Assembly: GCF_034190915.1 (NCBI RefSeq)
Contig: NW_026947486.1
Coordinates: forward strand, 105,368,812-105,432,811
Direction of reading: 5' to 3'
Source of the DNA: Cavia porcellus
Taxonomy: Eukaryota > Chordata > Mammalia > Rodentia > Caviidae
DNA: 64,000 nucleotides
Both the position numbers and the translations under genes were made by a program. Shown piece after piece: positions 1,561 through 52,979 of this stretch (position 1 is its first letter; the number at the start of each line of letters is the position of its first letter). Under the pieces are notes generated by a model, which was given only the letters and a program-made list of their open reading frames with translations, ran no database searches and was not told the DNA's origin.

Positions 1561-2894
1561 CTTCTGTGAGTTTTTGAAAATTCTTCCTCATTTCTTTGGA
1601 GACTCCAACCACATGTACAATAACCGATATGCACTCGCACATCTCACACTTTCATTTTCCATGTCATTCTTTCCTGCAATGTCTAGTCTATTCTTATGCT
1701 TATCCAAATGTTTTTTATCTCACGTATTATAGTTGTCATATGCAAACACTCCGTATGGTCCTTTGTTATATCTTTCACGTCTCTAATTTTTTGAACATAC
1801 TCAATTGTCATAATTCTTTCAATATCCTTATCTGTTGATTCTAACCTATATGCATTTTTACCATACTGGTCCTATTTTTATTCTCCAAGTTTTCTCACCG
1901 TGATTTATAGTTACCTGGCCCTCCTAATTTCAGGCTTCTCATTGCCTTCTAGTCCAGTTTTCAGATTATCAGTAAAATGATGTTTCTAAAGCACTCTCCT
2001 GTTGTTAAGGGTGGTGGTGACGATGATGATGACTTTTCTTCTTTGTGCCTGCCAACCTAAAATGCAAAACAGTACATAATTTAGGTAAAGTGTTTGTGCT
2101 ATTTGTCCTACTAAGAAGACCTGGTGCCAAACAGAAGGGAGACCTTAATGCTTAAAAAAATCAGCTATGTTCTCTAAAGGAAAGGAAAAGTGTGGATAAC
2201 TGTGCTACAGGTAGGCTGAGAGGAACTGGGGGATTATGACTTTATTTCTGCATGCTTGTTTAGAAAGAACGAGGCAAGGGCCTCTGATTCCTGCACATAT
2301 GGTAAAAAGCCCAGCCATCTCCACAGCTGCCGATACTCCATCAAAGGAGATATGCACCTGGAGCCAAGTAGCCTGGCTAAATGGTTTTCCTGTGCTCCTG
2401 AGTAAATGTATGTATTTTTAAAGATATAGTTTTCATAATAGGAAAGCAAGTAATTCTGGTATCTGTAAATTTAATCATGGTTCCTGTCCTTCGAAGCAGT
2501 GATTTGCAGAAATGGATTGTGTTGTATTGTCTCATTCACACAGATACTGTGATCACTGCTATTGTACCAATTTGATTAGGAGTCTAAGGAACTAAGAACA
2601 CCTTAGTGCTAGCATCATGAGATGAAATTACTATGGAAAACCATGCCCTCTCCTGGAACATCAAATTCACTAAGGTGCATTTCAGATGTACAGTGACTTT
2701 TTTGCTTCTGGTCTATTCAAATCGATGGGTAACATGAAATTAAAACCAATTGATTTCTACTTTTAGAACATGCCAGGGAACCATTATAGATAAGAGATTA
2801 ATCTGGCAATAGATCTTGTTGCTCATCAAATTAGGCCTCTATGCAGACAGTTTCAATGCATTTTTGAGTTATGCATTGTCTAATTTTCAGTAAT

Positions 2895-3325
2895 TAGTCT
2901 CCTAGGGTTGGTATAATGAAGTACCACAGACCTGGTGGCTTAAAGCAACAGAAATTTGTTCTCCCCAGTTCTGGAGTCTAGAAATCTAATGCTTCTTCTG
3001 TGCCCTCTAGTGAGACTTCTCCCTTGACTCTCAAATTCCTGGTGGTGTCACGCATTCCCTGGTTTATGTCAGCGCCACTCCAACCTCTGCTTCTGTCTCC
3101 ATGTGACCATTTTCCTCCCATGTGTGGCTCTGTCTCCCTGCCTCTTCTTAAAAGAAAATTTTTATATTGGATTGGGGCCCTCCCCACTCCAGCATAGCTT
3201 GATCTTAAGTTCATTAAATGTGAAAAGACTATATTTCTAAATCAGATCACATTCACAAGAAGGAGGGGTTAGGATTAGATCGTATCTTTTGAGGGGAGGC
3301 ACAATTCAACCCATAAAAGTGACTA
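2895..3325 (-). mobile_element. MLT1-type MaLR LTR, antisense
   Basis: In reverse complement this matches the layout of MLT1-family LTRs: an 'attgtgcctcccctc' start near 3315-3295, the 'gggccccaatccaatat' block (about 3165-3183), an 'aatttctgttgctttaagcc' polyadenylation-side block (about 2938-2957) and the 'tggtacttcattata' end. Divergence is high, as expected for this ancient ERVL-MaLR group. It is a solo LTR; no internal region is seen beside it. Confidence 0.75.
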
Positions 3326-3796
3326 AGATGTATTATGCCTCATGCTCTTTGCTGAGAAAAGTAAATCATGATTCTGTAACTTGATTCCTATTTAACATGC
3401 CACAGTATTTTCTTTAAGTCTTTAGAGACAATTTTTTGTGTGTTTGTGAAGTAATTTGGAGTCTTTAAAAATGTTTTACAACAGTAATGAAGTGCTATGT
3501 AATTATGTAGAAATAGTTTCCCAGCTAACTAAGGAAACACTTCTGAGATAGAGGTTAGGGAATATAGCAATAGAGGAAACTAATTAACCCAGAAGACAGG
3601 AATATTTCATCAGCTTTAAAAGTCTCAATGCTTGTTGACAAACTGCCACTGTTACATTTGTTTCTTCGGAACAAGCAGGTTTCTCTCTAGCCGAACAGTT
3701 CTTAGAGGTTAGTCAAAAAGATCAATATTTGAAAGAGAAAATGTGTCATGAGTGTACTAATGAAATGTGTTTACAGGGAAAATTTTAATACATTTT

Positions 3797-3872
3797 TTGG
3801 GTACCAGGAATTGAACTCAGGACCTTGCATTTGCCAGGGAGGCACTTGTGCTTCTGAGCTACATTCCTGGCA
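3797..3872 (-). mobile_element. ID-type SINE, antisense, degenerate
   Basis: A T-run leads into 'gggtaccaggaattgaac', which is the reverse complement of the B-box end of an ID SINE, and the copy ends in a diverged 'gagctacattcctgg' A-box region. ID elements derive from tRNA-Ala. Flanking 3326-3796 and 3873-4895 hold no gene that I can support. Confidence 0.65.
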
Positions 3873-4895
3873 GTACAGGGAATGTTTGATATGTTTTTAT
3901 GTAAATTTTCCCAGTGATATATTTGATTCTCAGGTACTACCAAGAGGTGTTTGACATAGTTATTTTGTCTTAGACCTCAGGAATATGAGCAAGCAGTGTT
4001 CTTTTTAAAATCCATTTTTATAACCTCAAGGGGATTTCATAATCCTGACAAATCTGCTTTCTTCATTTTTTATCACTTGTCTTTGTCCTTACACTTCTTG
4101 GAAAACTTTGGAGAGCCATCATGTTAATACATTTTGGAACTTCAAACATTGTACTTTTTATTGCAATGTTAAAAGATACCTGTCAGAAGTGGCAGTAGTG
4201 TTTGAAGTCAGATCTGGGATCAGAAAATTATTGACTAGGACCAAGTAACCCTGTAGACTTGTTAATGGAGGAAAAGTCATTTGAGAAAAAATTAAAAATG
4301 AGTATAACTAGTTAAAATCAATGTTGTTGACTATAAATACCCAAGTGTGTACCCTTCAAATTAAGTTGGATTTTGGCTGTGGTTATCTGTCAAATGAAAC
4401 GTATTGCAAAGGTATGTATACCAGACCAGACATGATAGCTTTACCCAGCAGGACAAGGGAAATCGCAATCTGAGTATGGCTCTGTTAAAAAAAAAAAATC
4501 AATGTTTTCAGTCAGAGAGAAACATTCTCAATGGTTGGTTAAGTTCAGGCAGCAAACAGACTGAATGTGCCTTCTGAACACTTGTTGCTTTGCAACTAGA
4601 AAGCAAGATCTTCATATTTCCTGCATCCCCAAGAATGCACACAGGTGTGAGCAAAGACCCTTGATGTTCATGCAAACAGACTGAGGGTGTCAATTCTCCC
4701 ACAGGCGGCAAAGAGCTGCAATCTGAATCTAAAGAATGAAGCCACAATGTAAAAAGAAATTTAGAGATGATTGTAAGCCAGCGGGTGCTCTTACAGTCTC
4801 TACATGCAGAAAATCTATTGCATATTATGAAATTTCAATGAATTCAATTCAATGGATTTCAGTGCCTCCTAGTTTAGGGCACTGGTAATATGTCT

Positions 4896-26018: not shown

Positions 26019-26023
26019 GTAAT
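26019..26023. repeat. Target site duplication, left (GTAAT)
   Basis: GTAAT immediately precedes the first base of the 5' LTR and is repeated exactly at 35970-35974, directly after the 3' LTR. A 5-bp duplication is in the range produced by gammaretrovirus-like integrases (4-6 bp). Confidence 0.93.
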
Positions 26024-26936
26024 TGTTGTACTCTAAGAAAGTAGCTTCATCATTTTGTGTATTATAGCAAACCTGTACCGCGGCTTACTAAATGTTTTCT
26101 TTTCTTAACTGATATGTTAAGTGACCCAATTGATATGTTGAGCAATACTCTCCCCTGTAAAGAATTGCAAGAATTTCACTTAATTGAAATGTTAATCACG
26201 GAGCGGCCCTCTACAAACAAGAAGAGTGGTGCTAAAACAAGCTAACAAGGGCTGTTAATCACGGGTAGGCGCCTCTAGTCTTCGCTAAAGAACTAAAGAA
26301 GACAAGAAGGCCCACTAATTTACACATTGTTTGAAGTAGTGTGTTTATATGCAGGGAGATTTGCCCATGAGTTTAACCTTTTTACCTAACCTTAGTTACT
26401 CTTCCCACAAGATAGATACTCGCCGTTTTCCTGTTCTGTAGCGCGCCTTATTGCCTCCCCCCACCCACCTATCTGGGCCATAAAGAATTTGGGTTTCTGG
26501 TGACCTCTCCCCGACCTGGTGATGATCTGTCATAAAATGAGCCTGCCCCAATTTTAAGAACTGTTTAGCTTCAAAGAAATTACCGGGAAATACTGTGGCC
26601 CAAACCCCGATCGGTGCTTTCCTTTTGTTCTGTATGTACCAATGGGTTAGATATCAGATCTTTGTAAAACTTAAGTTCCAGCATCTCATAACTCGTGACC
26701 CCTTCGCACTCACTGGCGAAGACAAGCTGTCCTAGGATAATTAACTCTCCACTTTCTTCCCCAAATATTGCTGCAGATGTGCCACTCTGAGATAATGTCA
26801 GTCTGCAGGATGGGAGTAATTTGAGCAACACCAGGAACTCCCGGGACTGTCAGAGCTAAGTGGACAGCAATACAGTTTCCAGATGCGGGTCAACAGGTTT
26901 AATGGCCTTACAGGTTTCCTCCCCACTTTCCCTTAC

Positions 26937-26945
26937 TTTTAAAAA
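26937..26945 (+). promoter_or_regulatory. TATA-like box of the 5' LTR
   Basis: TTTTAAAAA stands about 30 bases before the CG-rich 'gggcgcgcag' at 26963-26972, the likely cap region. The place relative to AATAAA (about 75 bases downstream) fits a gammaretroviral U3/R boundary. The same box is in the 3' LTR at 35818-35826. Confidence 0.65.
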
Positions 26946-27016
26946 CCCCTTTCCCCAGTCTTGGGCGCGCAGTCTTTGGTTTGATCTAGGAGAGACTGTG
27001 CCGCCAGGACTGGCTC

Positions 27017-27022
27017 AATAAA
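27017..27022 (+). terminator. AATAAA polyadenylation signal in R (5' LTR copy)
   Basis: The AATAAA hexamer sits in 'ctcaataaagcc', a context seen in many gammaretroviral R regions. The functional copy for the viral transcript is the equivalent at 35898-35903 in the 3' LTR. Confidence 0.85.
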
Positions 27023-27090
27023 GCCTTTGCCACTTAAGTTTTGGACTCTTGTTTCCGTGGACTTTATACCGGGGCCCACGTTATAACATT

Positions 27091-27108
27091 TGGGGGCTCG
27101 CCCTGGAT
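27091..27108 (+). promoter_or_regulatory. Primer binding site, tRNA-Pro-like
   Basis: The 18 bases starting TGGGGGCTCG lie two bases after the LTR end. They match the tRNA-Pro primer site of murine and gibbon-ape type gammaretroviruses at 16 of 18 positions; the differences are at positions 11 and 14 of the site (C and T instead of T and G). A different tRNA-Pro gene or a related tRNA could pair better. Confidence 0.85.
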
Positions 27109-27146
27109 GGAAGCAAGACTCCAGACTCATTTCCGAACATCTGAAA

Positions 27147-27152
27147 GTAAGT
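27147..27152 (+). promoter_or_regulatory. Candidate major splice donor in leader
   Basis: 'gaaa|gtaagt' at 27143-27152 fits the consensus donor closely and lies about 40 bases after the primer site, where gammaretroviruses place the donor for the spliced env message. I could not settle the matching acceptor; a pyrimidine-rich 'ttcttccctttgcattgctgag' stretch near 32361-32382 is one possibility. Confidence 0.6.
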
Positions 27153-27194
27153 GCTCTGGAGGTTTTGTTTGGGCCGCGGTCAATTTGTAATTTT

Positions 27195-27208
27195 GAGGGG
27201 ACGCCCTC
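27195..27208 (+). promoter_or_regulatory. GACG tetraloop hairpin 1 (leader)
   Basis: GAGGG-GACG-CCCTC forms a 5-bp stem capped by a GACG loop. GACG-loop hairpins are the known kissing stem-loops in the packaging signal of murine leukaemia virus. The hairpin is repeated 115 bases on with paired base changes (27310-27323), which strengthens the call. Confidence 0.75.
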
Positions 27209-27309
27209 AATTTGGGAGTGGGAACCACCCGAGGACAGAGTCAGTTGGTTTGTCGGACAAATTCTGTCCATCTGTGAATCTGCCCCGGGTGAGGAACCAC
27301 TCCGTTCGG

Positions 27310-27323
27310 AAGGGGACGCCCTT
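27310..27323 (+). promoter_or_regulatory. GACG tetraloop hairpin 2 (leader)
   Basis: AAGGG-GACG-CCCTT again forms a 5-bp stem with the same loop. Compared with hairpin 1, the outer G-C pair has become A-T on both sides, a compensatory change that keeps the stem. It sits in the second copy of a leader duplication. Confidence 0.75.
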
Positions 27324-27709
27324 AATTTGGGAAGTGAAGCCCCCGAGGATGAAGTCAATTGGTTTTTGCCATTTGTGACTCCGCCTGGGTGGGGAACCAC
27401 TTCATTAGTTAAATTTGTTAATTCCTCCAGATCCCAAAATTTGACTAATTTTTGAGCAAAGGCCATTCTGCTGCAGCTTGTCTTGTCCTGTCTCGTCTTG
27501 TGTGTCGGTCTGTGTGTTCATTTGTTCTAATTGTTCCCCTTTTTGGTCACCTAACTCTAACAGAGCCTTCTTTCTTAGGAGCTCCTTCCTGGAATTCGGA
27601 GTGGGCAAAGGTGATTCCGACCGTTTGCCTAGTCTCTGTAGTTTTTCTGTTTAACCCTAACTTTGCCTTTTAAGTTTTTTTTCCAGCAAAACCAGCGACA
27701 CCACCAGCT

Positions 27710-29200
27710 ATGGGTCAGAACGAGTCCATTATGGGTCGGAACGAATCTGTTCCCAGCACTCCCCTTAGCCTTGTCATTGACCACTTTAAAGAATTCCAGA
27801 GGCGAGGTGGGAGATATGGGGAAAGGGTTCGCAAAGCCAGACTAACAACCTTTGTCACACAGGAGTGGCCCCTGGGGACCCAAGGAGTCTGGCCCCCTTT
27901 TGGGTCCTTTGATATGGAGACAGCTCGAGCGGTCCGCCAGTATGTATTTGGGCCCCCCGCTCACCCCGATCAGATTGTCTATATCCAGGCTTGGATAGAT
28001 ACAATCTATGATGCTCCCCCTTGGATTGAGCCACTTCCGAATGGAGTCCTAGCAGCCCTCAAACCGAAATCCAAGGCTGAAGAGGAGACCTCCAAGCCCA
28101 ACGCACCTCCAGTCTTACCTCCGAGCGAAGACTTCTCCGACCCGCTAGACATCCTTCCCTTACCCCCTCCCCCGTATCCTGCCCCTGAGCCACAACCTGA
28201 CTCCACCTCGCCCTCCCCGCCTCGGCCCATTCGAACCCGCCGCCACGCTCGACCAGAGGGACCTCTGGAACAGGGCCACGAGGCAGCGCCACTGTGTCCT
28301 CTGCGGGAGGTCCCAGCCCCGAGTGGGGGCTCCATGTTTGTGTACACCCCCTTTTCTTTCTCTGACCTCTATAACTGGAAAAGTCAGAACCCCCCTTTCT
28401 CGAAGGACCCAGAATCTCTGATTAGCCTTATAGAGTCTGTTTTCTCCACCCACCTTCCCACTTGGGATGACTGCCAGCAGATCTTACGCATCCTTTTCAC
28501 GGCTGAGGAAAGGATGCGAATCTGCGCTTTGGGGCAAAAGGGAGTCCGAGAACCGGATGGATCTCCATCCACTGATCGGCAACGAATTGAGCACTTGTTC
28601 CCCTCCTCCCGACCCGAGTGGGACCCTAACACGGATGCAGGTAAGAAGGCTCTCGATGAGTATCGCCTGAGGCTCTTAGATGCACTTCGTGCGGCTGCTA
28701 AGAAGCCCACCAACCTTTCCCGAGTGAGTGCAGTGCAGCAGTTAGCCGATGAGTCTCCAGCGGTGTTCTTAGAGCGCCTTTTAGAGACCTATAGATTATA
28801 TACTCCAATCAATCCGATGGCACCCGAGAACGCACGAGCAATTAATATTGCTTTCGTGTCCCAGTCGGCCCCTGATATTAGGAGAAAGTTACAAAAGCTT
28901 GAGGGATTCGAGGGAATGCCTCTCAGCCAGTTGGTCGAGGTCGCACAAAAGGTTTTCAACAATAGGGAAACCTTGCAAGAAACAACAACCAAAAGGATGA
29001 CTAAAGTACTGGAATTACTTTGCGAAAAAGAAGCCAAGAGGTCAGCTAACCCTAGGAAAAAGGAAGCTCGAGGTAAGCGACCTCCTCTAGACAAAGAGCA
29101 ATGTGCGTACTGTAAGGAGATGGGACATTGGCGTAAGGATTGTCCAAAGTTAAAGCCTAAGACAGAACGAGAGACTAAGGCCCTGTTGTCTCAGAAATGA
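27710..29200 (+). CDS. gag: Gag polyprotein
   Basis: The 496-codon frame encodes the structural precursor that assembles particles at the plasma membrane. Visible in order: an N-terminal MGQ myristoylation signal, matrix (about 1-130), a proline-rich p12-like part with a PPPY late motif at residues 153-156, capsid starting near P197 with the conserved 'SFSDLYNWK' segment, a charged lysine/arginine/glutamate stretch before nucleocapsid, and one CX2CX4HX4C zinc knuckle at 465-478. The length is close to other gammaretroviruses (about 520-540). The first seven residues are repeated with changes (MGQNESI, then MGRNESV). The frame ends in TGA at 29198-29200, and pol follows in the same frame. An in-frame stop at 27671-27673 rules out an extended glyco-Gag frame reaching this ATG. 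Confidence 0.97.
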   Translation: MGQNESIMGRNESVPSTPLSLVIDHFKEFQRRGGRYGERVRKARLTTFVTQEWPLGTQGVWPPFGSFDMETARAVRQYVFGPPAHPDQIVYIQAWIDTIYDAPPWIEPLPNGVLAALKPKSKAEEETSKPNAPPVLPPSEDFSDPLDILPLPPPPYPAPEPQPDSTSPSPPRPIRTRRHARPEGPLEQGHEAAPLCPLREVPAPSGGSMFVYTPFSFSDLYNWKSQNPPFSKDPESLISLIESVFSTHLPTWDDCQQILRILFTAEERMRICALGQKGVREPDGSPSTDRQRIEHLFPSSRPEWDPNTDAGKKALDEYRLRLLDALRAAAKKPTNLSRVSAVQQLADESPAVFLERLLETYRLYTPINPMAPENARAINIAFVSQSAPDIRRKLQKLEGFEGMPLSQLVEVAQKVFNNRETLQETTTKRMTKVLELLCEKEAKRSANPRKKEARGKRPPLDKEQCAYCKEMGHWRKDCPKLKPKTERETKALLSQK

Positions 29201-29257
29201 GGAGGTCAGGGCTCGCCGCCACCCCCCGAGCCCCGGATAACTCTCCAAGTGGGGGGG
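29198..29257 (+). promoter_or_regulatory. TGA readthrough site with pseudoknot
   Basis: The gag stop TGA (29198-29200) is followed by an 8-base spacer starting GGAGGTCA, the same context as at the murine leukaemia virus site. Stem 1 pairs GGGCTCG (29209-29215) with CGAGCCC (29227-29233). The loop holds CCCCC (29222-29226), which can pair with the G7 run at 29251-29257 as stem 2. Such a pseudoknot drives a few percent readthrough in this virus group. TGA in place of TAG is the odd feature. Confidence 0.85.
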
Positions 29258-32200
29258 CAACCGGTGGACTTCCTAGTCGATACAGGAGCTACCTATTCTG
29301 TGCTGACTCAACCATTAGGAAAACTGACCAAGCAATCTGTCAATGTGATAGGAGCTACAGGGGGCCGAAAATCGTACCCAAAGGTGACAGCTAGTCTGGC
29401 TCGACCTGGACATAGACTGGTCCAACATGATTTTCTCTGGGTCCCTGAGTGCCCGGATCCCCTTTTAGGGCGGGACCTTCTACATAAATTACAGGTGCAA
29501 ATTGACTTTGTTACGAATGAACCTAGACTGAAGCTAGGGACTGATACCCCCTCAAAATCAGAGGGTATTAGAGTGTTGGCTCTTGTCCCAGAAGGAGAAA
29601 GTTACCGCCTGCTGGGAAGTTTGTCTGGTGCACCCGAGTTGTCACGGACTGACTTAGAATTAGAACTGCTGAACAAATGGAAACAGGAGATTCCAGAAGT
29701 CTGGGCAGAAAACAACCCTCCAGGGCTAGCAGTCAACCAAGTCCCCCATGTGGTAGAACTCTTGCCTCAGGCACGCCCCATCTGCTTAAGGCAATACCCA
29801 ATAAGCCTGCAAGCCCGGAAAGGAATTAAAGTCCACATACAGAGACTAAGAGACAATAATATTCTCATTCCTTGTGTCTCTCCCTGGAACTCGCCCTTGC
29901 TCCCAGTTCAGAAACCGGGGACGAATGACTATCGCCCTGTACAGGATCTCCGAGAGGTTAATAGACGAGTGCTGACTCTACACCCAACAGTGCCAAATCC
30001 TTACACCCTGCTCAGCCTCCTTAATCCGGAGAACACCTGGTACTCTGTCCTGGACTTGAAGGATGCCTTCTTCACCCTGCCTCTTGCTCCGGTGAGTCAA
30101 CCCCTATTTGCCTTCGAGTGGACTGACCCAGATACAGGGGTAAAGGAACAGCTGACCTGGACACGTTTACCTCAGGGCTACAAGAACTCTCCCACCCTTT
30201 TTGACGAGGCGTTAGCAAGAGATCTCTTAGGATTTAGAGAGGAACACCCCGAGATAGTGCTCCTTCAATATGTAGATGATTTGTTGATAGCCTCAACGTC
30301 CCTAGAAACATGTCAAGAGGCAACTGAGGAGTTGTTAAAGACTTTGGGACGATTAGGCTATAAAGTCTCGGCTAAAAAGGCTCAACTGTGTCGCCAGGCC
30401 GTGACTTACCTGGGCTATAAATTACAAGAAGGAAAGAGGACTTTATCAAAAGAAAGAATCCAGGCCATATTACAAATCCCATCCCCAGAAACTAAGAAAC
30501 AGGTGCGGGAGTTTCTGGGAGCTGTCGGATACTGCAGACTATGGATTCTAAACTTTACTGAAATCGCTCGCCCATTGTATGACTCTTTAAAGGGAGAGAC
30601 TCAAAAGTCGCTCGACTGGACAGATGAGTGCGAGCAGGCTTTCCAACAGCTCAAGCGAGCTCTGACTGAGGCTCCAGCCCTGGGGCTCCCTGATGTTACT
30701 AAACCCTTCACCTTGTTCGTAGATGAACTCAGAGGCATAGCAAAAGGGGTTCTGACTCAAGATATTGGCCCTTGGAAGAGACCTATAGCCTATCTTTCTA
30801 AAAGACTCGACCCAGTGGCAGGAGGGTGGCCTCCGTGCCTGAGAATTTTGGCCGCTGTGGCAATGCTACTCAAAGAGGCTAAGAAGCTCACTTTTGGACA
30901 AAAGATTTCTGTGGTAACCTCCCACAGCCTAGAGACTCTTATTAAAACCCCCCCAGAAAAATGGCTTTCAAATGCCAGAATTCTACACTATCAGGCCTTG
31001 CTTCTAGACCCAGAATCAGTAGTTTTCAAGACCTCCTCAGCTCTAAACCCAGCCACTCTCATGCCCGACGATAACCCAGAAAACCAACAGATGCCTCTCC
31101 ATGAGTGTGCTGACATTCTCGAGTTACAGCAGAACTTGCGAGCTGATCTAACCGACCAGCCTTTTAAGGACGCTTACAATTATTTCACCGACGGAAGCAG
31201 TTTCATTCAGGACGGGAGGCGAGTGGCCGGCGCAGCAGTGACCACCGAGAAAGAGGTACTCTGGGCTAAGCAGTTAGAGCCTGGCACTTCTGCCCAAAAG
31301 GCAGAGCTCATTGCTCTGACAGAGGCATTAAAGCTAGCCTCAGGAAAGAGGGTAAACATCTACACAGACAGCAGATATGCTTTTGCTACTGTACATGTAC
31401 ATGGAGCTATTTACCATGAACGCGGTCTCTTGACCTCGGCCGGGACTAAGATTAAAAATGCCCCACAGATCCTAGACTTGCTAGCAGCTGTCTGGCTACC
31501 TCAGCAAGTCGCTATTATTCATTGCAAGGCACACCAAGTGGGAGATGACCCCATCATCATAGGAAACAATTTGGCCGATCAGGCTGCCCGAAAAATAGCA
31601 ACCACATCAGAGGGGCCTGCAGAGGAAATGACTGCCCTGATGCTAGTCCCTCAAGCCTTGTCAGAGCCTGTTTATTCGAAGACAGATTTACAGCTAGCAT
31701 CTCAACTTGGAGCCAAACCCCGCACTCCAGGGGGCTGGTATCAGCTGCCCGACAAGCGAGTGCTGTTACCCGAAGCACTAGGACGAGAGCTTTTGCAGCA
31801 AGCTCATCAGGCTACTCATTTAGGAGGAACTAAACTAGCAGAATTGTTCAGAGATCGATTTTTCATTCCAAAGCTCTCCAAACTAACTGCCTCTCTGAGC
31901 TCTAGATGTCCACAGTGTTTGTTGGTCAACCCAACCAGGAAACCTCCACTGGAAACCACCCGGTATCGAGGAACCTCCCCAGGAGAACACTGGGAAGTGG
32001 ACTTCACGGATATGGTAAAACCTGGCTTGCAGGGACACCGCTATCTCCTGGTGATGGTAGACACATTCACTGGCTGGGTAGAGGCCTTCCCCACTAAGTC
32101 TGAGTCAGCCCTGGTTATAGTTAAAAAGCTACTACATGAGATTATACCCCGATTTGGCCTCCCATTATCAATGGGGTCCGACAATGGCCCGGCTTTTATA

Positions 32201-32854
32201 GCCCAAGTTACTCAAAAGTTAGCCCAAGTATTGAAAATCAGTTGGAAACTCCATTGTGCCTATCGGCCACAAAGCTCGGGACAAGTAGAGCGCATGAACC
32301 GGACCATTAAGGACGCTTTGACTAAGCTGTCTTTAGAAACTGGTGACAATTGGGTGAGCCTTCTTCCCTTTGCATTGCTGAGGGCCAGATGCACCCCATA
32401 TATTTCTGGGATCTCCCCCTTTGAGGCTATGTTCGGGAGACCCCCACCTATAGTTCCTAAGTTGTCAGAAGACAAATTAGCCGAAGTAACTAACCAAGAT
32501 CTCATTAAGTCCTTACAGAGTCTCCAGCCTGTACTGACCTCAATTCACCGGCTGTTCAGACAAAAACATCCGAACCCCCCCTTGGGAACGCTGCCCCAAG
32601 CGTCAATTGAGCCAGGAACGTCGGTCCTGGTGCGACGACACCACCGGGATTCGCTTGAGCCGCGCTGGGAGGGACCGTTCACCGTGGTGCTCAGCACTCC
32701 CACCTCCGTCAAGGTAGCAGGAAAGACTGCGTGGATCCACCACACACAAGTCAAACCACTGGAAGCTACAGACGACGAAAAGGGTCCCCGATGGACAGTA
32801 CAACGGACTGGTAACCCATTAAAGTTAAAGTTTGTAAAGGACTCTCAGCCATAA
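29201..32854 (+). CDS. pol: Pro-Pol polyprotein (by stop readthrough from gag)
   Basis: 1217 codons open from the gag TGA to TAA at 32852-32854, same frame as gag. The protease has the catalytic DTG at 29279-29287. Reverse transcriptase shows the 'LDLKDAFF' motif and YVDD at 30269-30280. RNase H has TDGS (D at 31190) and YTDS (D at 31367). Integrase has the zinc-binding pair H31805/H31817 with C31907/C31916 and a catalytic D (32000), D (32180) and E (32288), a D,D35E spacing. A chromodomain-like C-terminal integrase segment follows. No catalytic residue is missing. In-cell role: maturation, cDNA synthesis and integration. The frame begins without its own ATG, as expected for readthrough; the first codons after TGA are GGQG. 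Confidence 0.97.
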   Translation, partial: GGQGSPPPPEPRITLQVGGQPVDFLVDTGATYSVLTQPLGKLTKQSVNVIGATGGRKSYPKVTASLARPGHRLVQHDFLWVPECPDPLLGRDLLHKLQVQIDFVTNEPRLKLGTDTPSKSEGIRVLALVPEGESYRLLGSLSGAPELSRTDLELELLNKWKQEIPEVWAENNPPGLAVNQVPHVVELLPQARPICLRQYPISLQARKGIKVHIQRLRDNNILIPCVSPWNSPLLPVQKPGTNDYRPVQDLREVNRRVLTLHPTVPNPYTLLSLLNPENTWYSVLDLKDAFFTLPLAPVSQPLFAFEWTDPDTGVKEQLTWTRLPQGYKNSPTLFDEALARDLLGFREEHPEIVLLQYVDDLLIASTSLETCQEATEELLKTLGRLGYKVSAKKAQLCRQAVTYLGYKLQEGKRTLSKERIQAILQIPSPETKKQVREFLGAVGYCRLWILNFTEIARPLYDSLKGETQKSLDWTDECEQAFQQLKRALTEAPALGLPDVTKPFTLFVDELRGIAKGVLTQDIGPWKRPIAYLSKRLDPVAGGWPPCLRILAAVAMLLKEAKKLTFGQKISVVTSHSLETLIKTPPEKWLSNARILHYQALLLDPESVVFKTSSALNPATLMPDDNPENQQMPLHECADILELQQNLRADLTDQPFKDAYNYFTDGSSFIQDGRRVAGAAVTTEKEVLWAKQLEPGTSAQKAELIALTEALKLASGKRVNIYTDSRYAFATVHVHGAIYHERGLLTSAGTKIKNAPQILDLLAAVWLPQQVAIIHCKAHQVGDDPIIIGNNLADQAARKIATTSEGPAEEMTALMLVPQALSEPVYSKTDLQLASQLGAKPRTPGGWYQLPDKRVLLPEALGRELLQQAHQATHLGGTKLAELFRDRFFIPKLSKLTASLSSRCPQCLLVNPTRKPPLETTRYRGTSPGEHWEVDFTDMVKPGLQGHRYLLVMVDTFTGWVEAFPTKSESALVIVKKLLHEIIPRFGLPLSMGSDNGPAFIAQVTQKLAQVLKISWKLHCAYRPQSSGQVERMNRTIKDALTKLSLETGDNWVSLLPFALLRARCTPYISGISPFEAMFGRPPPIVPKLSEDKLAEVTNQDLIKSLQSLQPVLTSIHRLFRQKHPNPPLGTLPQASIEPGTSVLVRRHHRDSLEPRWEGPFTVVLSTPTSVKVAGKTAWIHHTQVKPLEATDDEKGPRWTVQRTGNPLKLKFVKDSQP

Positions 32855-32858
32855 AATT

Positions 32859-34859
32859 ATGTCTGTACTATGGTATTTGGCTTGGTGCTCGATTATAATT
32901 GTAAACCCCGGGAATGGGGACTGGATTGTTTCAGACGAGAAAACTAAAAGGGAACTAGGGAGAGCTAAAGGCACGATAAATCAAGTCACCATTGACCTAT
33001 GTATACTTTTCAATGGGATAATAATTAATGATGACAGCCCAACTGGCAGGGTAGGTGGGTCGGTCCACCGTAACCTCTGCTCGGGCCGTGGGCCTAAAGC
33101 TCTGCAAGTTATGTTCCAACTCAAGCAGGCATCCCTGTATGTATGTCCTAAAAACCAGCCTGACCCCAATTATAATGTGTACTGTGCCTCCGATCCAAAA
33201 CATCAATATTGTTATTCGTGGTCATGTGTCACAGGAGGCCTAGATGGATACTATAACTCTGAAAAGTATCTCGCTGTCAAGTACATAGGAAACAAAAACT
33301 GTTATGGTGTTTATACTTGTAACCCAGTCCAGCTGACCTTTCTAAATCCAACGGATTTTAGGTGGCTGGGGCAGGGACTTACTTACGCTGTTAAAATTTA
33401 TAAATCTGGACATGATCCTGGAATTAGTATCAATATCTTATACAAGCCACCTAGAAAGCCTCCTGTAGTCATTTACAGGAGAGGACGCCGCCCAGTGACA
33501 GCCCCCACTCAGAAGGCACCCATTAATTTCCCACTCAGTCGACCCCGGAGGCACACTCCGACGACTAAAGTGACTGAGGCCACATACAATGGGAGCATTT
33601 ACCACACAGACCAGCCCCAGATAAAGCTGTGTAAATGGAGGGGGGAAGGGGGCATCCCGTACTGGATAGAGATTAGAGTGCCTAGCCTCGATCCAACCTC
33701 GATGCAACCTTCAACGAGGGCTACAAAAACTGGTTTGAGAAGGTCTAGACGGGCACAGACTGAGCCCAAAGCCTCCGCCCCACCTTCAATGATAGCGGAA
33801 ATATTCCAACCTTTGGAAGTAGCAGCTGAGCTACTTAACAGTTCCCTTGATAGCGATTTAAAAATCCCATGCTGGCTGTGCATGTCCCCAGAGCCCCCCT
33901 TCTATGAGGGCTACATCACGGTCACTGATAAACTAGCCTCCGATCCCTCTAGATGCAAAATGCTCCTTCCCCAATCGCTATGGAAAGGCACCAGTTTAGA
34001 GGGGATAACTGGTACCTGCATATATCATTTTAGCCACACAGCCCCTGAGTATTGCGACCTTTCTCACTCTTATCGCATCACAGGAGCTGGTGACGCTACT
34101 CCCCTAATAGCCCCGGCCAGCCATTGGTGGGCTTGTACTTCAGGATGGTTCCCTTGTATGATTTCAAAAAAGTTCGTTGTTGACCAGGATGAGGTGTGTG
34201 TACTAACCCAGGTTCTGCCTAGAATCTACTGGCACTCCGAGGAAGAAGGGAACCGGGCTCTCATCTCAGCCAGTCACCAGATCAATAAGAGAAGTCCAGC
34301 CCTCCCTATTATGGCTGGGATCAGTGTATTCTCAGCCCTCGGGATGAGTGCTGCGTCCATGGGAGTTAGCATACACCAATACAATATGCTATCTCAACAG
34401 GTAGATGAAGAAATAAAAAGAGTCCAAAATGCTATTGAGGCCTTAGAGAGTTCAATGGACTCATTAGCTGAAGTAGCTCTCCAAAATCGCAGAGGACTAG
34501 ACCTCTTGCTTGCTGAAAAAGGAGGACTGTGCTTGGCCCTGGGAGAGCAATGCTGCTTGTACGCCAATAAGTCTGGGGTAGTTAGACAAAACTTAGCGGA
34601 ACTCCAAAGAGGCATACAAGAAAGAGAGAGACTAAGACAAGGAGCTCTAGGGTGGGCGGAGCAAATGTTCTCCTTCCCACCGTGGATAACCAACATAATA
34701 GCGACCGTAGCCGGTCCTATCATTGTGATTCTAGTGCTAGCCACTTTGGGCCCCTGCATAGTAAATAGGCTGACTGCATATGTCAAGCGTCAGGTACAAA
34801 GTATAAAATTAATGATGGTCAGGCAACAAGCGTATGAGCTTGTCCCCAGCAGACCTTAA
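32859..34859 (+). CDS. env: Envelope glycoprotein precursor (SU-TM)
   Basis: 666 codons starting at ATG four bases after the pol stop, so env does not overlap pol as it does in murine leukaemia virus. A hydrophobic signal peptide covers about residues 1-18. SU carries the CWLC disulfide-exchange motif at 338-341. A dibasic KR ends at residue 478, just before a hydrophobic fusion-peptide-like stretch. TM (about 188 residues) has a heptad-like helix, the CX6CC motif at 558-566, a membrane anchor at about 610-635 and a 31-residue tail with a YxxL-type motif. These are hallmarks of gamma-type envelopes. The N-terminal SU half did not match any receptor-binding domain that I recognise, so tropism is unknown. 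Produced from a spliced message, presumably using the leader donor. Confidence 0.95.
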   Translation: MSVLWYLAWCSIIIVNPGNGDWIVSDEKTKRELGRAKGTINQVTIDLCILFNGIIINDDSPTGRVGGSVHRNLCSGRGPKALQVMFQLKQASLYVCPKNQPDPNYNVYCASDPKHQYCYSWSCVTGGLDGYYNSEKYLAVKYIGNKNCYGVYTCNPVQLTFLNPTDFRWLGQGLTYAVKIYKSGHDPGISINILYKPPRKPPVVIYRRGRRPVTAPTQKAPINFPLSRPRRHTPTTKVTEATYNGSIYHTDQPQIKLCKWRGEGGIPYWIEIRVPSLDPTSMQPSTRATKTGLRRSRRAQTEPKASAPPSMIAEIFQPLEVAAELLNSSLDSDLKIPCWLCMSPEPPFYEGYITVTDKLASDPSRCKMLLPQSLWKGTSLEGITGTCIYHFSHTAPEYCDLSHSYRITGAGDATPLIAPASHWWACTSGWFPCMISKKFVVDQDEVCVLTQVLPRIYWHSEEEGNRALISASHQINKRSPALPIMAGISVFSALGMSAASMGVSIHQYNMLSQQVDEEIKRVQNAIEALESSMDSLAEVALQNRRGLDLLLAEKGGLCLALGEQCCLYANKSGVVRQNLAELQRGIQERERLRQGALGWAEQMFSFPPWITNIIATVAGPIIVILVLATLGPCIVNRLTAYVKRQVQSIKLMMVRQQAYELVPSRP

Positions 34860-34895
34860 GTACGGCCAAGGATTTGGCCCAGAAGTCACAACATC

Positions 34896-34904
34896 AGAGG
34901 GGAA
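34896..34904 (+). promoter_or_regulatory. Polypurine tract
   Basis: AGAGGGGAA stands directly before the TG start of the 3' LTR, the position of the plus-strand DNA primer in retroviruses. Confidence 0.9.
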
Positions 34905-35969
34905 TGTTGTACTCTAAGAAAGTAGCTTCATCATTTTGTGTATTATAGCAAACCTGTACCGCGGCTTACTAAATGTTTTCTTTTCTTAACTGATATGTTA
35001 AGTGACCCAATTGATATGTTGAGCAATACTCTCCCCTGTAAAGAATTGCAAGAATTTCACTTAATTGAAATGTTAATCACGGAGCGGCCCTCTACAAACA
35101 AGAAGAGTGGTGCTAAAACAAGCTAACAAGGGCTGTTAATCACGGGTAGGCGCCTCTAGTCTTCGCTAAAGAACTAAAGAAGACAAGAAGGCCCACTAAT
35201 TTACACATTGTTTGAAGTAGTGTGTTTATATGCAGGGAGATTTGCCCATGAGTTTAACCTTTTTACCTAACCTTAGTTACTCTTCCCACAAGATAGATAC
35301 TCGCCGTTTTCCTGTTCTGTAGCGCGCCTTATTGCCTCCCCCCACCCACCTATCTGGGCCATAAAGAATTTGGGTTTCTGGTGACCTCTCCCCGACCTGG
35401 TGATGATCTGTCATAAAATGAGCCTGCCCCAATTTTAAGAACTGTTTAGCTTCAAAGAAATTACCGGGAAATACTGTGGCCCAAACCCCGATCGGTGCTT
35501 TCCTTTTGTTCTGTATGTACCAATGGGTTAGATATCAGATCTTTGTAAAACTTAAGTTCCAGCATCTCATAACTCGTGACCCCTTCGCACTCACTGGCGA
35601 AGACAAGCTGTCCTAGGATAATTAACTCTCCACTTTCTTCCCCAAATATTGCTACAGATGTGCCACTCTGAGATAATGTCAGTCTGCAGGATGGGAGTAA
35701 TTTGAGCAACACCAGGAACTCCCGGGACTGTCAGAGCTAAGTGGACAGCAATACAGTTTCCAGATGCGGGTCAACAGGTTTAATGGCCTTACAGGTTTCC
35801 TCCCCACTTTCCCTTACTTTTAAAAACCCCTTTCCCCAGTCTTGGGCGCACAGTCTTTGGTTTGATCTAGGAGAGACTGTGCCGCCAGGACTGGCTCAAT
35901 AAAGCCTTTGCCACTTAAGTTTTGGACTCTTGTTTCCGTGGACTTTATACCGGGGCCCACGTTATAACA
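34905..35969 (+). mobile_element. 3' LTR (1065 bp)
   Basis: Same length as the 5' LTR, with two substitutions only: A at 35654 and A at 35850, where the 5' copy has G. The AATAAA signal is at 35898-35903. A 62-codon plus frame and an 83-codon minus frame are open in both LTRs, but they are shared simply because the LTRs are near-identical copies. Confidence 0.96.
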
Positions 35970-35974
35970 GTAAT
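35970..35974. repeat. Target site duplication, right (GTAAT)
   Basis: Exact repeat of 26019-26023 beside the other LTR end. Confidence 0.93.
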
Positions 35975-50175: not shown

Positions 50176-51424
50176 AGTGGACATATTTGGCCTTACAAAT
50201 ACATGAAGCATACAGAACATACTATGGATACATGTACCAACCTGAAGGAACACTGAGATACTCATACTACATTTAATAAATGGAATTCCAAAATATCATT
50301 TACCAAATAATTCTATCAATCTAACACTTCTCACTTGACAAAACTGTAAAGGCAGCCAAGAGTGCTTTCAGTTATGACAGAGAGTAATGGGTGTGGTTAT
50401 TAATAGGATCTCTCTCCATGAGAGACACTTTGTTGATGAAATACCGATGACTCTTTAAACTGACAAGTTGTCCAGTGAATCATCAGGCACGATAAAGTTA
50501 CATAGAACTAGACAGTGGTTTGAACATTAGCATGTGTAGAAAGAGAGAAATCCCACTCAGGTAGATGGATTGTACCAATGCCCCTTTCCTGGATCTGACA
50601 TTGTACTGTTATTTTGGAAGATACTACAGCTGGAGCAGACTGAATCACCGGTATACAGGGCTCTTTCTATATTTTGTTCCTAGGGTGTGTGGACACGTGA
50701 CTCTCTCAAAGCACACAATTGAAGCTACAGAATCAATCACATATCTCTATCCTAAGAAAGAATATTTGGAAAGTAAAATCAAAGCCACTACATGGGAAAC
50801 TAAGTAGGAAGGCATAAATTAAATAAAATGTGCATAAGAGAGGGGGACTAAATAGTGTCTGGATATCATACTGAAATCTACATAGGAGAAAAAATGTATC
50901 AGATCCATCCATTTACAGAGAAAAGACACATAGTCTTAGGAGCATAGATGGATCCTGCCTATGTGATTGGGAGAAATATTGCACAGGAATATACAAGACA
51001 AATCCTCAAGAGTCCGCCAAGGACCCTATGCATTGTGTTCCCACTCCCTGGAAGAGGACTGGCCTCATGCCTGACAATGCTGGCCCAGAGGGAAAGGGAG
51101 AGGAACTGAGGAGTGGGCTGAGAGGGGAGCCAGTGAGGAAGGGAGGACAGGGTGCTGAGCCAAGAGGCCAGCAGCCAAGGACACCTGAAGGGGCTCCACT
51201 GCCCTCTGGAGCAGGGCACTGTTGCCTGCCCCACACAGAAGGTGCTTCCTTTGCAGGGCAAGGCAGGCAACCTCCTCCATCACCCTGCATCAGGGAGAGA
51301 GGATGGCTGCAGCCTGGACCTGCTGCTCAAAGGGGGAGTCTCTACTCTTGCACTGGTGGTCTCCAGGGTCTGGCTAGCTGCGGCTCTCAGTGTGTTCCCA
51401 AAGCCTGCCTTTGTCCAAAATGGG

Positions 51425-51905
51425 CCCATTCTCTCCCCTCCCCTTCCCTCATCTTCTTTCCCTTACCCTCTCCATGCCTGCCCATTCCCCCTTGGCTCCC
51501 CTTCCCCTCCTTTCCCTCCCTGCCTCCTCCCTTCCCTCCCCTTCCCCTCCTTTCCCTCCCTGCCTCCTCCCTTCCCTCCCCTTCCCCTCCTTTCCCTCCC
51601 TGCCTCCTCCCTTCCCTCCCCTTCCCCTCTCATTTCCTCCCTGCCACCCCCCTGCCTTGTCTTCTTTCCCTCACCCTCTCCATCCATGTGCCTTCCACTC
51701 TCCCTCCCCTTTCCTGCCCCCTCCTCCTTCCCTCTCCTCCCTTCCATCCCCTCCCTTTCCCTTGCCTCCTCTCCCCTGCTTTCCCTCTCCCTCCTCTCCC
51801 TCCCCTACCTTCCCACTATCTTCCCCTCCCCTCTCCTCTCCTCCCAACCTCTTCCCCTCCACAACCCTCTCCTCTCCCTTCCCTACCTTTCCCTCCCTCA
51901 CCCAC
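51425..51905. repeat. CT-rich low-complexity tract with 40-bp minisatellite
   Basis: Almost pure pyrimidine on the plus strand. Three perfect 40-bp units start at 51501, 51541 and 51581 (unit begins cttcccctcc). The tract makes several long open frames on both strands, which are compositional artefacts. On the minus strand it is a G/A-rich stretch beginning about 60 bases past the polyadenylation signal of the histidine-rich gene. Confidence 0.95.
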
Positions 51906-51960
51906 AGCCCAGGTAACAGGCACAAATGCACAGAGTCCTCCTTCAGTATCTCCACTGTGC

Positions 51961-51966
51961 TTTATT
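51961..51966 (-). terminator. AATAAA signal of the histidine-rich gene
   Basis: TTTATT on the plus strand gives AATAAA on the minus strand, 18 bases past the TGA stop at 51985-51987. A very short 3'UTR of this kind is common among compact testis-type genes (general knowledge; expression here is not shown). Confidence 0.75.
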
Positions 51967-51984
51967 GTTTAGAGTTGGTCTGGG

Positions 51985-52854
51985 TCACATCCACCCGACT
52001 GCTCTTCTTACTTCCTGGATTGCTCTTGTACTCAGTCTTCCTCCTGAGGTTGTCTTCTCCACAGTTCCTGGATTTCTGCAGGGCAGGGCTCCGGGGAGCC
52101 TGGCCTCCTCCACTGTGACCTCAGAAGGTGGCTCCTGAAGCTCAGTCACAGGCCTCTCTTCATCTTCGCTGTCTTCTTCCCTCCTCTTCTTTGCCCTTTC
52201 ATACAGCATCAACAGAGAGTGCTTCTGGTGTCTCTTGTGACTATGGTGTCTGCCATGACTGTGGTGTCCGCCATGACTATGATGTCTGCCATGACTATGG
52301 TGTCTGCCATGATGGTGTCTGCCATGACTATGGTGTCTGCCATGGCTGTGGTGTCTGCCATGCCTGTGATGACTGCGATGACTGTGGTGTCTGCTGTGAA
52401 TCTGGGGTGTGTTGTAATTCTGGTCCCACATGGAAAACACTTGGTCAATGACCCTCTGCCTCTGGAAGGAAAGGAGAGGGGAGGCTGGGTTAGTCTGGCC
52501 CTAGAGGAGCCTGCTCTGCCCTGCCCTGCCCTGCCATGCCCTACCTGCCCTGCTCTACCCTGCCCTTCCCAGTGGGAGGAGTCTGGAGGAGGTAGAAGGG
52601 CTGGGTCCAGGGGAGCAGGAGGGCCAGGGGCTAGGGGTTAGGGCCCAGAGACCTGGGACCATGACACCAAGAGCAGGGCACAGCCAGAGTCTACTCACAT
52701 GATCTCCTTCCTGGTACTCGGACTCCACCAAGCTCTCTGCCTCCTCCTCCGACTCAGAGGTGTTTTCGGGTTCATCCAGCCTGTTGATGGGCTTCTGGGG
52801 GTTTACCCAAGTAAGCACCCAGTTGCCCTGTATTTGGCGACCTTCCTCTGTCAT
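51985..52854 (-). CDS. Two-exon histidine-rich acidic protein, unknown family
   Basis: Coding exon 1 is 52854-52699 (52 codons, ATG in a GCCATGA context), ending in a perfect donor CAT|GTGAGT. The intron (52698-52462, 237 bp) ends in 'ctcctttccttccag'. Exon 2 runs 52461-51985 with a TGA stop. Phase is 0/0, giving 210 residues. The N-terminal part is acidic (EPENTSESEEEAESL). Residues from about 73 to 125 are a His/Arg/Gly/Ser repeat with the unit RHHSHG, encoded by 18-bp repeats. Then comes a basic KKRR patch, an acidic EDSEDEE patch and a Ser/Glu tail. No signal peptide or membrane segment. The alternation suggests a nuclear or metal-binding protein, but this is inference. The frame continues open upstream of the ATG to a TTG at 52935, but no ATG lies there. 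I do not recognise the family. Confidence 0.65.
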
Positions 52855-52979
52855 GGCTAAGGCTTTGGACCTCTGAACCTTAGGGCAGCTTCCTATTTTT
52901 GTTTCTTCTATGTTCACCTCTGGCTCTGGAGGCAATGGAGGCTGACTCTACCTTTGTTCCATCACAGCCTCTGCACCAG

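Follow-up and report, generated by a model that had tools for sequence, protein, structure and literature searches.

A gammaretrovirus-like provirus of a multi-copy guinea pig family with target-site repeats of both 4 and 5 bp

We analyzed a stretch of 64,000 nucleotides of the guinea pig (Cavia porcellus) genome (contig NW_026947486.1, positions 105,368,812 to 105,432,811), hereafter called the window. Positions 26024-35969 hold a provirus with the layout long terminal repeat (LTR)-gag-pol-env-LTR, at 105.4 Mb of the contig that we number C3. A preliminary description, made from the letters alone, had placed a gammaretrovirus-like provirus of a rodent host at these positions, with LTRs differing at 2 of 1065 sites and a perfect 5-bp target duplication, and our results agree on each of these points. 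Both LTRs, the 5' LTR at 26024..27088 and the 3' LTR at 34905..35969, are 1065 nt long and differ at exactly two positions (26773/35654 and 26969/35850), at each of which the 5' LTR reads G and the 3' LTR reads A. The 5' LTR has the ends TG...CA and an AATAAA at LTR position 994, and TATAAA is absent from its 1065 nt. The element is bounded by perfectly matching GTAAT repeats (left, 26019..26023; right, 35970..35974), and random 5-mer pairs drawn from the window flanks agree in 0.15% of draws. The CpG observed/expected ratio is 0.43-0.62 within the provirus versus 0.15-0.17 in the flanks.

The LTRs and all internal features lie on the plus strand. The primer-binding site (27091..27108), which we take to be tRNA-Pro-like with two differences, starts two bases past the end of the 5' LTR. 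It is followed by a leader (27109..27709) that presumably contains the packaging and splice-donor region; the GGTGAG at 27288 resembles a splice donor in sequence only, and a simple pattern search for a splice acceptor ahead of env gave none, which is not evidence either way. The gag gene (27710..29200, 496 aa) encodes MA, the p30 capsid, one CCHC knuckle and a PPPY motif, and ends in TGA (29198-29200). Directly after this stop and in the same frame, pol (29201..32854, 1217 aa) encodes protease, reverse transcriptase (RT), RNase H and integrase. The env gene (32859..34859, 666 aa) encodes a surface subunit (SU), with an N-terminal domain, a proline-rich middle and CWLC, and then a transmembrane subunit (TM) that carries LQNRRGLD, CX6CC and a membrane anchor; we take CWLC, LQNRRGLD and CX6CC to be gammaretroviral Env motifs. 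A polypurine tract (34896..34904) adjoins the 3' LTR. Rfam and tRNA scans of the window returned nothing.

The gag, pol and env genes have no internal stop, and the catalytic motifs are present (protease DTGA, RT YVDD, the RNase H Asp motifs, and integrase HHCC and D,D-35-E), as the preliminary description had stated. Pfam models matched MA, p30, the zinc knuckle, RVP, RVT_1, RNase_H, rve, MLVIN_C and TLV_coat, and the matches to Gag_MA, Gag_p30, zf-CCHC and MLVIN_C exceed the curated cut-offs. MA and p30 of murine leukemia virus (MLV) type, a single zinc knuckle and an MLV-type integrase C-terminus, together with gag and pol in one frame parted by a stop codon, place the provirus in class I.

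The window and all 16 other copies checked have TGA as the stop between gag and pol. Gammaretroviruses are tabulated with UAG at this place (PMC3542737; here and below, papers are cited for the passages available to us). When UGA was placed in MLV, readthrough and replication were the same as in the wild type (PMC4178896), and XtERV-S likewise has TGA (PMC8278194). The putative readthrough element (29198..29265) comprises the UGA, an 8-nt spacer and a 7-bp stem in a fold for which only nested stems were modelled. From their layout, a run of C in the loop and a run of G downstream could pair as a pseudoknot.

The Pfam Env model matched SU at 88 bits, and Env has only three N-glycosylation sequons and a dibasic SU/TM junction. 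In a PDB search, TM resembled syncytins, which would be expected of any gammaretroviral TM, and SU alone gave a chance match only. An AlphaFold model of Env, built on an alignment of two near-identical rows, had a mean pLDDT (predicted local distance difference test) of 28 and was discarded. A protein-database search with Env returned 1 match among 6661 candidates, with query words from the first 500 residues and the conserved TM barely used. Short contigs from other public datasets, which may derive from DNA or RNA, contain near-identical Env (3 residue differences) and Gag (2).

The provirus has many close relatives in its own assembly, a family that the preliminary description had overlooked. 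We searched the assembly with the 5' LTR of the window and scored the best 40 of 1778 candidates, so the copy counts are lower bounds. All 40 span the full length, their identity is 99.7% or higher over the 1065 bases, and 0-3 positions differ from the query (zero in 22, the query included). They comprise 17 5' LTRs and 18 3' LTRs (those of the window counted) and five solo LTRs. With three mates added separately, they yield 19 proviruses with paired LTRs, 13 of which have identical pairs; the remaining six differ at 1, 3, 1, 2, 3 and, in the window, 2 positions (12 differences in total). Five copies (C41, C22, C7, C4a and C1, named after their contigs) are identical to the window throughout the 4476 internal bases compared, the primer-binding site region excluded. 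Among the best 67 of 4359 candidate Env loci, 55 are full length, 34 of those are stop-free, and an identical 666-aa Env is encoded at 10, the window included. An old provirus held open by host selection, with a domesticated syncytin-like env, would also have an open Env with a TM resembling syncytins, but gag and pol are open too, the LTRs are nearly identical and the 34 open loci among 55 lie at many sites, and we give this explanation almost no credence.

The 24 insertions represented by the paired proviruses and solo LTRs have distinct flank pairs, with one repeat-like similarity among the 1400-nt flanks, and in several proviruses (C23, C10, C6b and others) private variants are common to both LTRs. 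The preliminary description had raised a collapse of the LTRs in the assembly as a possible flaw. This is unlikely because the two LTRs differ and the other copies sit at independent loci, with unrelated flanks and their own repeats. Gene conversion or segmental duplication could keep copies identical and make the burst look more recent than it is; conversion is known for endogenous retroviruses (ERVs; PMC4664997), and a few family loci are duplicated, C43 and C45 having the same flanks. We consider this improbable for the family as a whole, given 24 insertions with different flanks and target repeats and entire 1065-nt LTRs plus thousands of internal bases identical across contigs, and private variants present in both LTRs of a provirus are what newly inserted variant genomes would show.

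Two versions of the primer-binding site occur among the 17 5' LTR loci: 12 match that of the window (window included) and five differ from it at two positions; four of these five show no other difference from the window over the next 1500 bases. Because the primer-binding site is copied from the primer tRNA, the two versions may reflect priming by two tRNAs. On one strand of C4, two Env loci that are open and full length (C4:58254328 and C4:58263209) lie exactly 8881 bases apart; spaced by the LTR-to-LTR period of the provirus, they look like a tandem provirus sharing one LTR. The LTR spacing is 8691 in C6 (L017/L018) and 7738 in C34 (L004/L005) versus 8881, with identical LTRs, and these copies therefore have internal deletions. 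The leader shows a one-base length difference near 27683 in C8 and C32a (by spacing also in C4b and C18). The Env matches C82, C284, C123 and C25/C26 form near-identical pairs truncated at the same residue, and are probably segmental duplications of older copies.

To date the insertions, we assumed substitution rates of 2.2e-9 and 4.5e-9. The two events in the window have a 95% Poisson interval of 0.05-1.5 million years (My) at the lower rate and 0.03-0.75 My at the higher. Pooled over the 19 pairs, in a sample that favours young copies, the mean is 135 (70-235) thousand years (kyr) at 2.2e-9 and 66 (34-115) kyr at 4.5e-9. A single pair with zero differences bounds its own age only to <640 kyr (2.2e-9) or <313 kyr (4.5e-9). 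The age of a few hundred thousand years given in the preliminary description does follow from 2/1065, but the interval around it is wide, and the LTR clock blends editing with time because the changes between copies are mostly plus-strand G-to-A (see below). The provirus is young, as had been claimed; however, since 13 of the 19 paired proviruses show no LTR difference, it is not among the youngest of its family.

The most surprising feature of the family is its mixed lengths of target-site repeat. Among 54 insertions, 35 have a repeat of 5 bp, 13 a repeat of 4 bp and four no repeat, and in two an LTR end was not found; 48 of the 54 are perfect. The first set (the 19 paired proviruses and five solo LTRs) contributes 15 repeats of 5 bp and nine of 4 bp, and the second (30 proviruses located via their Env coordinates) 20 of 5 bp, four of 4 bp, four without a repeat and the two with a missing LTR end. 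The 4-bp share did not vary significantly with youth (9/24 vs 4/24, p 0.19). Repeat length has been described as invariant for each retrovirus (PMC2857682), and this family has no one fixed length. The integrase of Rev-A produced 5 bp in 26/26 concerted products (PMC3790719), and sites of xenotropic MLV-related virus (XMRV) had 4 bp in 13/15 cases, with one of 5 bp and one of 273 bp (PMC2857682). The mixture in the guinea pig family differs from both (p 0.003 against Rev-A; p 1e-5 against XMRV, the 273-bp site left out). C43 and C45 (junctions L127, L128, L133 and L134) have the same flanking bases and no matching target repeat; these two of the four repeat-less sites are probably one duplicated insertion.

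If the 4-bp repeats were eroded or mis-called 5-bp repeats, the mixture would be only apparent. We found no support for this, and it is very improbable: the four 4-bp sites of the second set align without mismatch as 4-bp repeats but show 2-3 mismatches when read as 5-bp repeats, the other nine fit the 4-bp but not the 5-bp register with LTR ends intact, several are in copies with identical LTRs, and 4-bp repeats agree by chance in 0.5%. A 408-residue stretch of integrase equals that of the window, itself with a 5-bp repeat, in three 4-bp copies (C41, C22 and C36) and six 5-bp copies (C19, C6a, C1, C7, C4a and C6b), and no integrase residue that we saw separates the two groups; in C34 only 41 residues were comparable. 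From these sequences, it is likely, although not proven, that one integrase makes both 4-bp and 5-bp staggers. A provirus may have been inserted by an integrase other than the one that it encodes. Two related viruses or helper integrases, one a 4-bp and the other a 5-bp cutter, might thus have made the insertions, given that the packaged integrase need not be the genome-encoded one and that copies with a broken integrase were evidently inserted by the enzyme of another copy. The identical stretch shared by copies of both kinds and the absence of any residue that sorts them argue against such a pair of enzymes, as does the occurrence of both lengths among less similar copies (4 bp in 4 of 24), and we hold this alternative to be unlikely.

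The changes that separate the copies are strongly biased. Across 18 copies compared over 1575-4494 internal bases each, we found 69 distinct substitutions; read on the viral plus strand, 57 of them are G-to-A and five are C-to-T (p 2e-13), and 43 of the 57 G-to-A sites precede A or G (58% expected, p 0.005). Among 43 LTRs, 15 of 25 changes are G-to-A and three C-to-T. Such a bias is typical of lesions that arise in minus-strand DNA while it is being made by reverse transcription, and a deaminase of the APOBEC3 kind would be the simplest source. The two LTR changes of the window itself fit editing less well, both lying before C, a less favoured context, and one in a CpG. Some defective copies appear to have moved with the help of intact relatives, because two copies have non-G-to-A changes in common, which supports their shared descent, and three copies with different flanks carry an identical integrase stop. 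In two of 13 further copies that we inspected, env contains stops and the SU/TM junction is different, yet the LTR pairs are identical. C23 differs from the window at 0 of the first 1500 internal bases and at 15 of the last 1500, a pattern that suggests recombination between co-packaged genomes.

Outside the provirus, the window flanks gave no match to a retroviral protein or to the LTR, and ten open reading frames there have no Pfam match above the cut-off. A segment at 50875-52950 is GC-rich, CpG-poor and pyrimidine-rich, with long chance reading frames on both strands and no Pfam match above the cut-off. The preliminary description had suggested that the copy may be unfixed in the species. 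We searched one assembly for the joined empty site and found no exact match; a single match with 2 mismatches, on another contig, lies in a diverged repeat that is 66% similar over 1664 bases, and the provirus therefore seems to lie in an old repeat.

We observed the LTR-gag-pol-env-LTR layout with open genes, near-identical copies at independent sites and one identical Env at 10 loci, and the window very probably contains a recent germline provirus of a multi-copy, gammaretrovirus-like guinea pig family. In the cycle that we propose, transcription would run from the LTR to the poly(A) signal, a proline-type tRNA would prime at the primer-binding site and the plus strand would start at the polypurine tract. 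Gag-Pol would arise by readthrough of the UGA, aided by the downstream stem, and Env would be translated from a spliced RNA. Integrase would insert the viral ends into target DNA with a stagger of 4 or 5 bp. Strand-biased G-to-A changes would be added at reverse transcription, by a host deaminase or the polymerase, and copies with broken genes would be mobilised by intact relatives. Several points weigh against parts of this account. The fold of the whole 65 nt downstream of the UGA is no stabler than shuffled sequences (z-score +1.16), and the SU/TM junction departs from what we take to be the full furin consensus, which makes processing unsure. Because the LTRs (40) and Env loci (67) analyzed are those with the best scores, the sample leans towards young copies, and G-to-A changes found in more than one copy may reflect repeat hits at hot spots rather than shared descent. 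A bolder version, which we put forward tentatively and would not yet back, is that the family is a still-mobile, insertionally polymorphic gammaretrovirus in which a single integrase alternates between 4 and 5 bp, bridging the modes of MLV (4) and reticuloendotheliosis virus (REV; 5), and in which a host factor adds G-to-A changes in each round of reverse transcription.

On this evidence, the guinea pig, a widely used laboratory animal, harbours a retrovirus burst that is very young and includes dozens of open copies. This is relevant to guinea pig cell lines and experiments, and G-to-A editing would be a host-virus conflict seen in progress. If one integrase does make both repeat lengths, the determinant of stagger in the retroviral intasome would be testable within one protein. 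We did not find a description of the family in the open-access literature searched, and repeat databases may hold it; guinea pig ERVs have been counted as a class (PMC4335370 and PMC3265301).

Among the listed matches, the closest Pol is guinea pig LOC134473219 (99% over 942 aligned residues), and beyond guinea pig the identities are 57% to bat loci, 56% to REV and 53% to Rauscher MLV; a pol search of viral contigs gave no relative. We built a pol tree of 51 rows, 50 of them hand-picked from the best 120 of 631 matches, by a quick method with only Shimodaira-Hasegawa approximate likelihood ratio (SH-aLRT) support. Pol groups with the gammaretroviruses, which together with the Pfam domains upholds the earlier assignment. 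The window and its guinea pig twin are on a long branch in the half that contains REV, echidna, hedgehog, sloth and several bat loci, separate from the half with MLV and porcine endogenous retrovirus (PERV). REV and echidna pair with a support of 99, the hedgehog locus joins next and the window falls outside, on a deep branch of its own whose position within the REV-side half is tentative. In a gag tree, four guinea pig rows form a fully supported clade apart from the REV clade, the deeper position being weak.

Compared with known systems, the family shares several features with the REV group (REV, echidna-ERV and Galidia-ERV), with Gag 45-47% identical to REV, Echidna ERV and Galidia ERV, Pol on the same side of the tree and most insertions with 5-bp repeats, as for Rev-A (PMC3790719). 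Unlike that group, it sits on its own long branch and also makes 4-bp repeats. Env differs as well: an SDGGG-type receptor motif marks Env of the betaretrovirus-associated (RDR) kind that belongs to the REV clade, and a motif scan found neither SDGGG..D nor DGGG in the window Env. The guinea pig was stated in 2013 to have no truly REV-like virus (PMC3754887); there is no conflict with that passage, because the family lies outside the REV clade. With MLV, PERV, gibbon ape leukemia virus and koala retrovirus, it shares the genome plan, the in-frame gag-pol arrangement interrupted by a stop codon, a single CCHC knuckle, a proline-type primer-binding site and an Env with CWLC and CX6CC, but its Pol belongs to another clade and it uses UGA where they use UAG. 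Its mixed 4/5-bp repeats also contrast with XMRV, in which 13/15 sites have 4 bp (PMC2857682). Other gammaretrovirus-like loci of guinea pig (LOC106025342, LOC106025343 and LOC106026990) belong to a sister lineage; LOC106025342 is in the same gag clade as the window with Gag 75% identical, and LOC106026990 (pol 53%) sits on the MLV/PERV side. CfERV-Fc1(a) of dog, a recently expanded and insertionally polymorphic gammaretroviral lineage, resembles the family in its recent multi-copy burst and in some LTR pairs of zero divergence, but it is another lineage in another host, and its repeats are all of 5 bp (PMC6407205).

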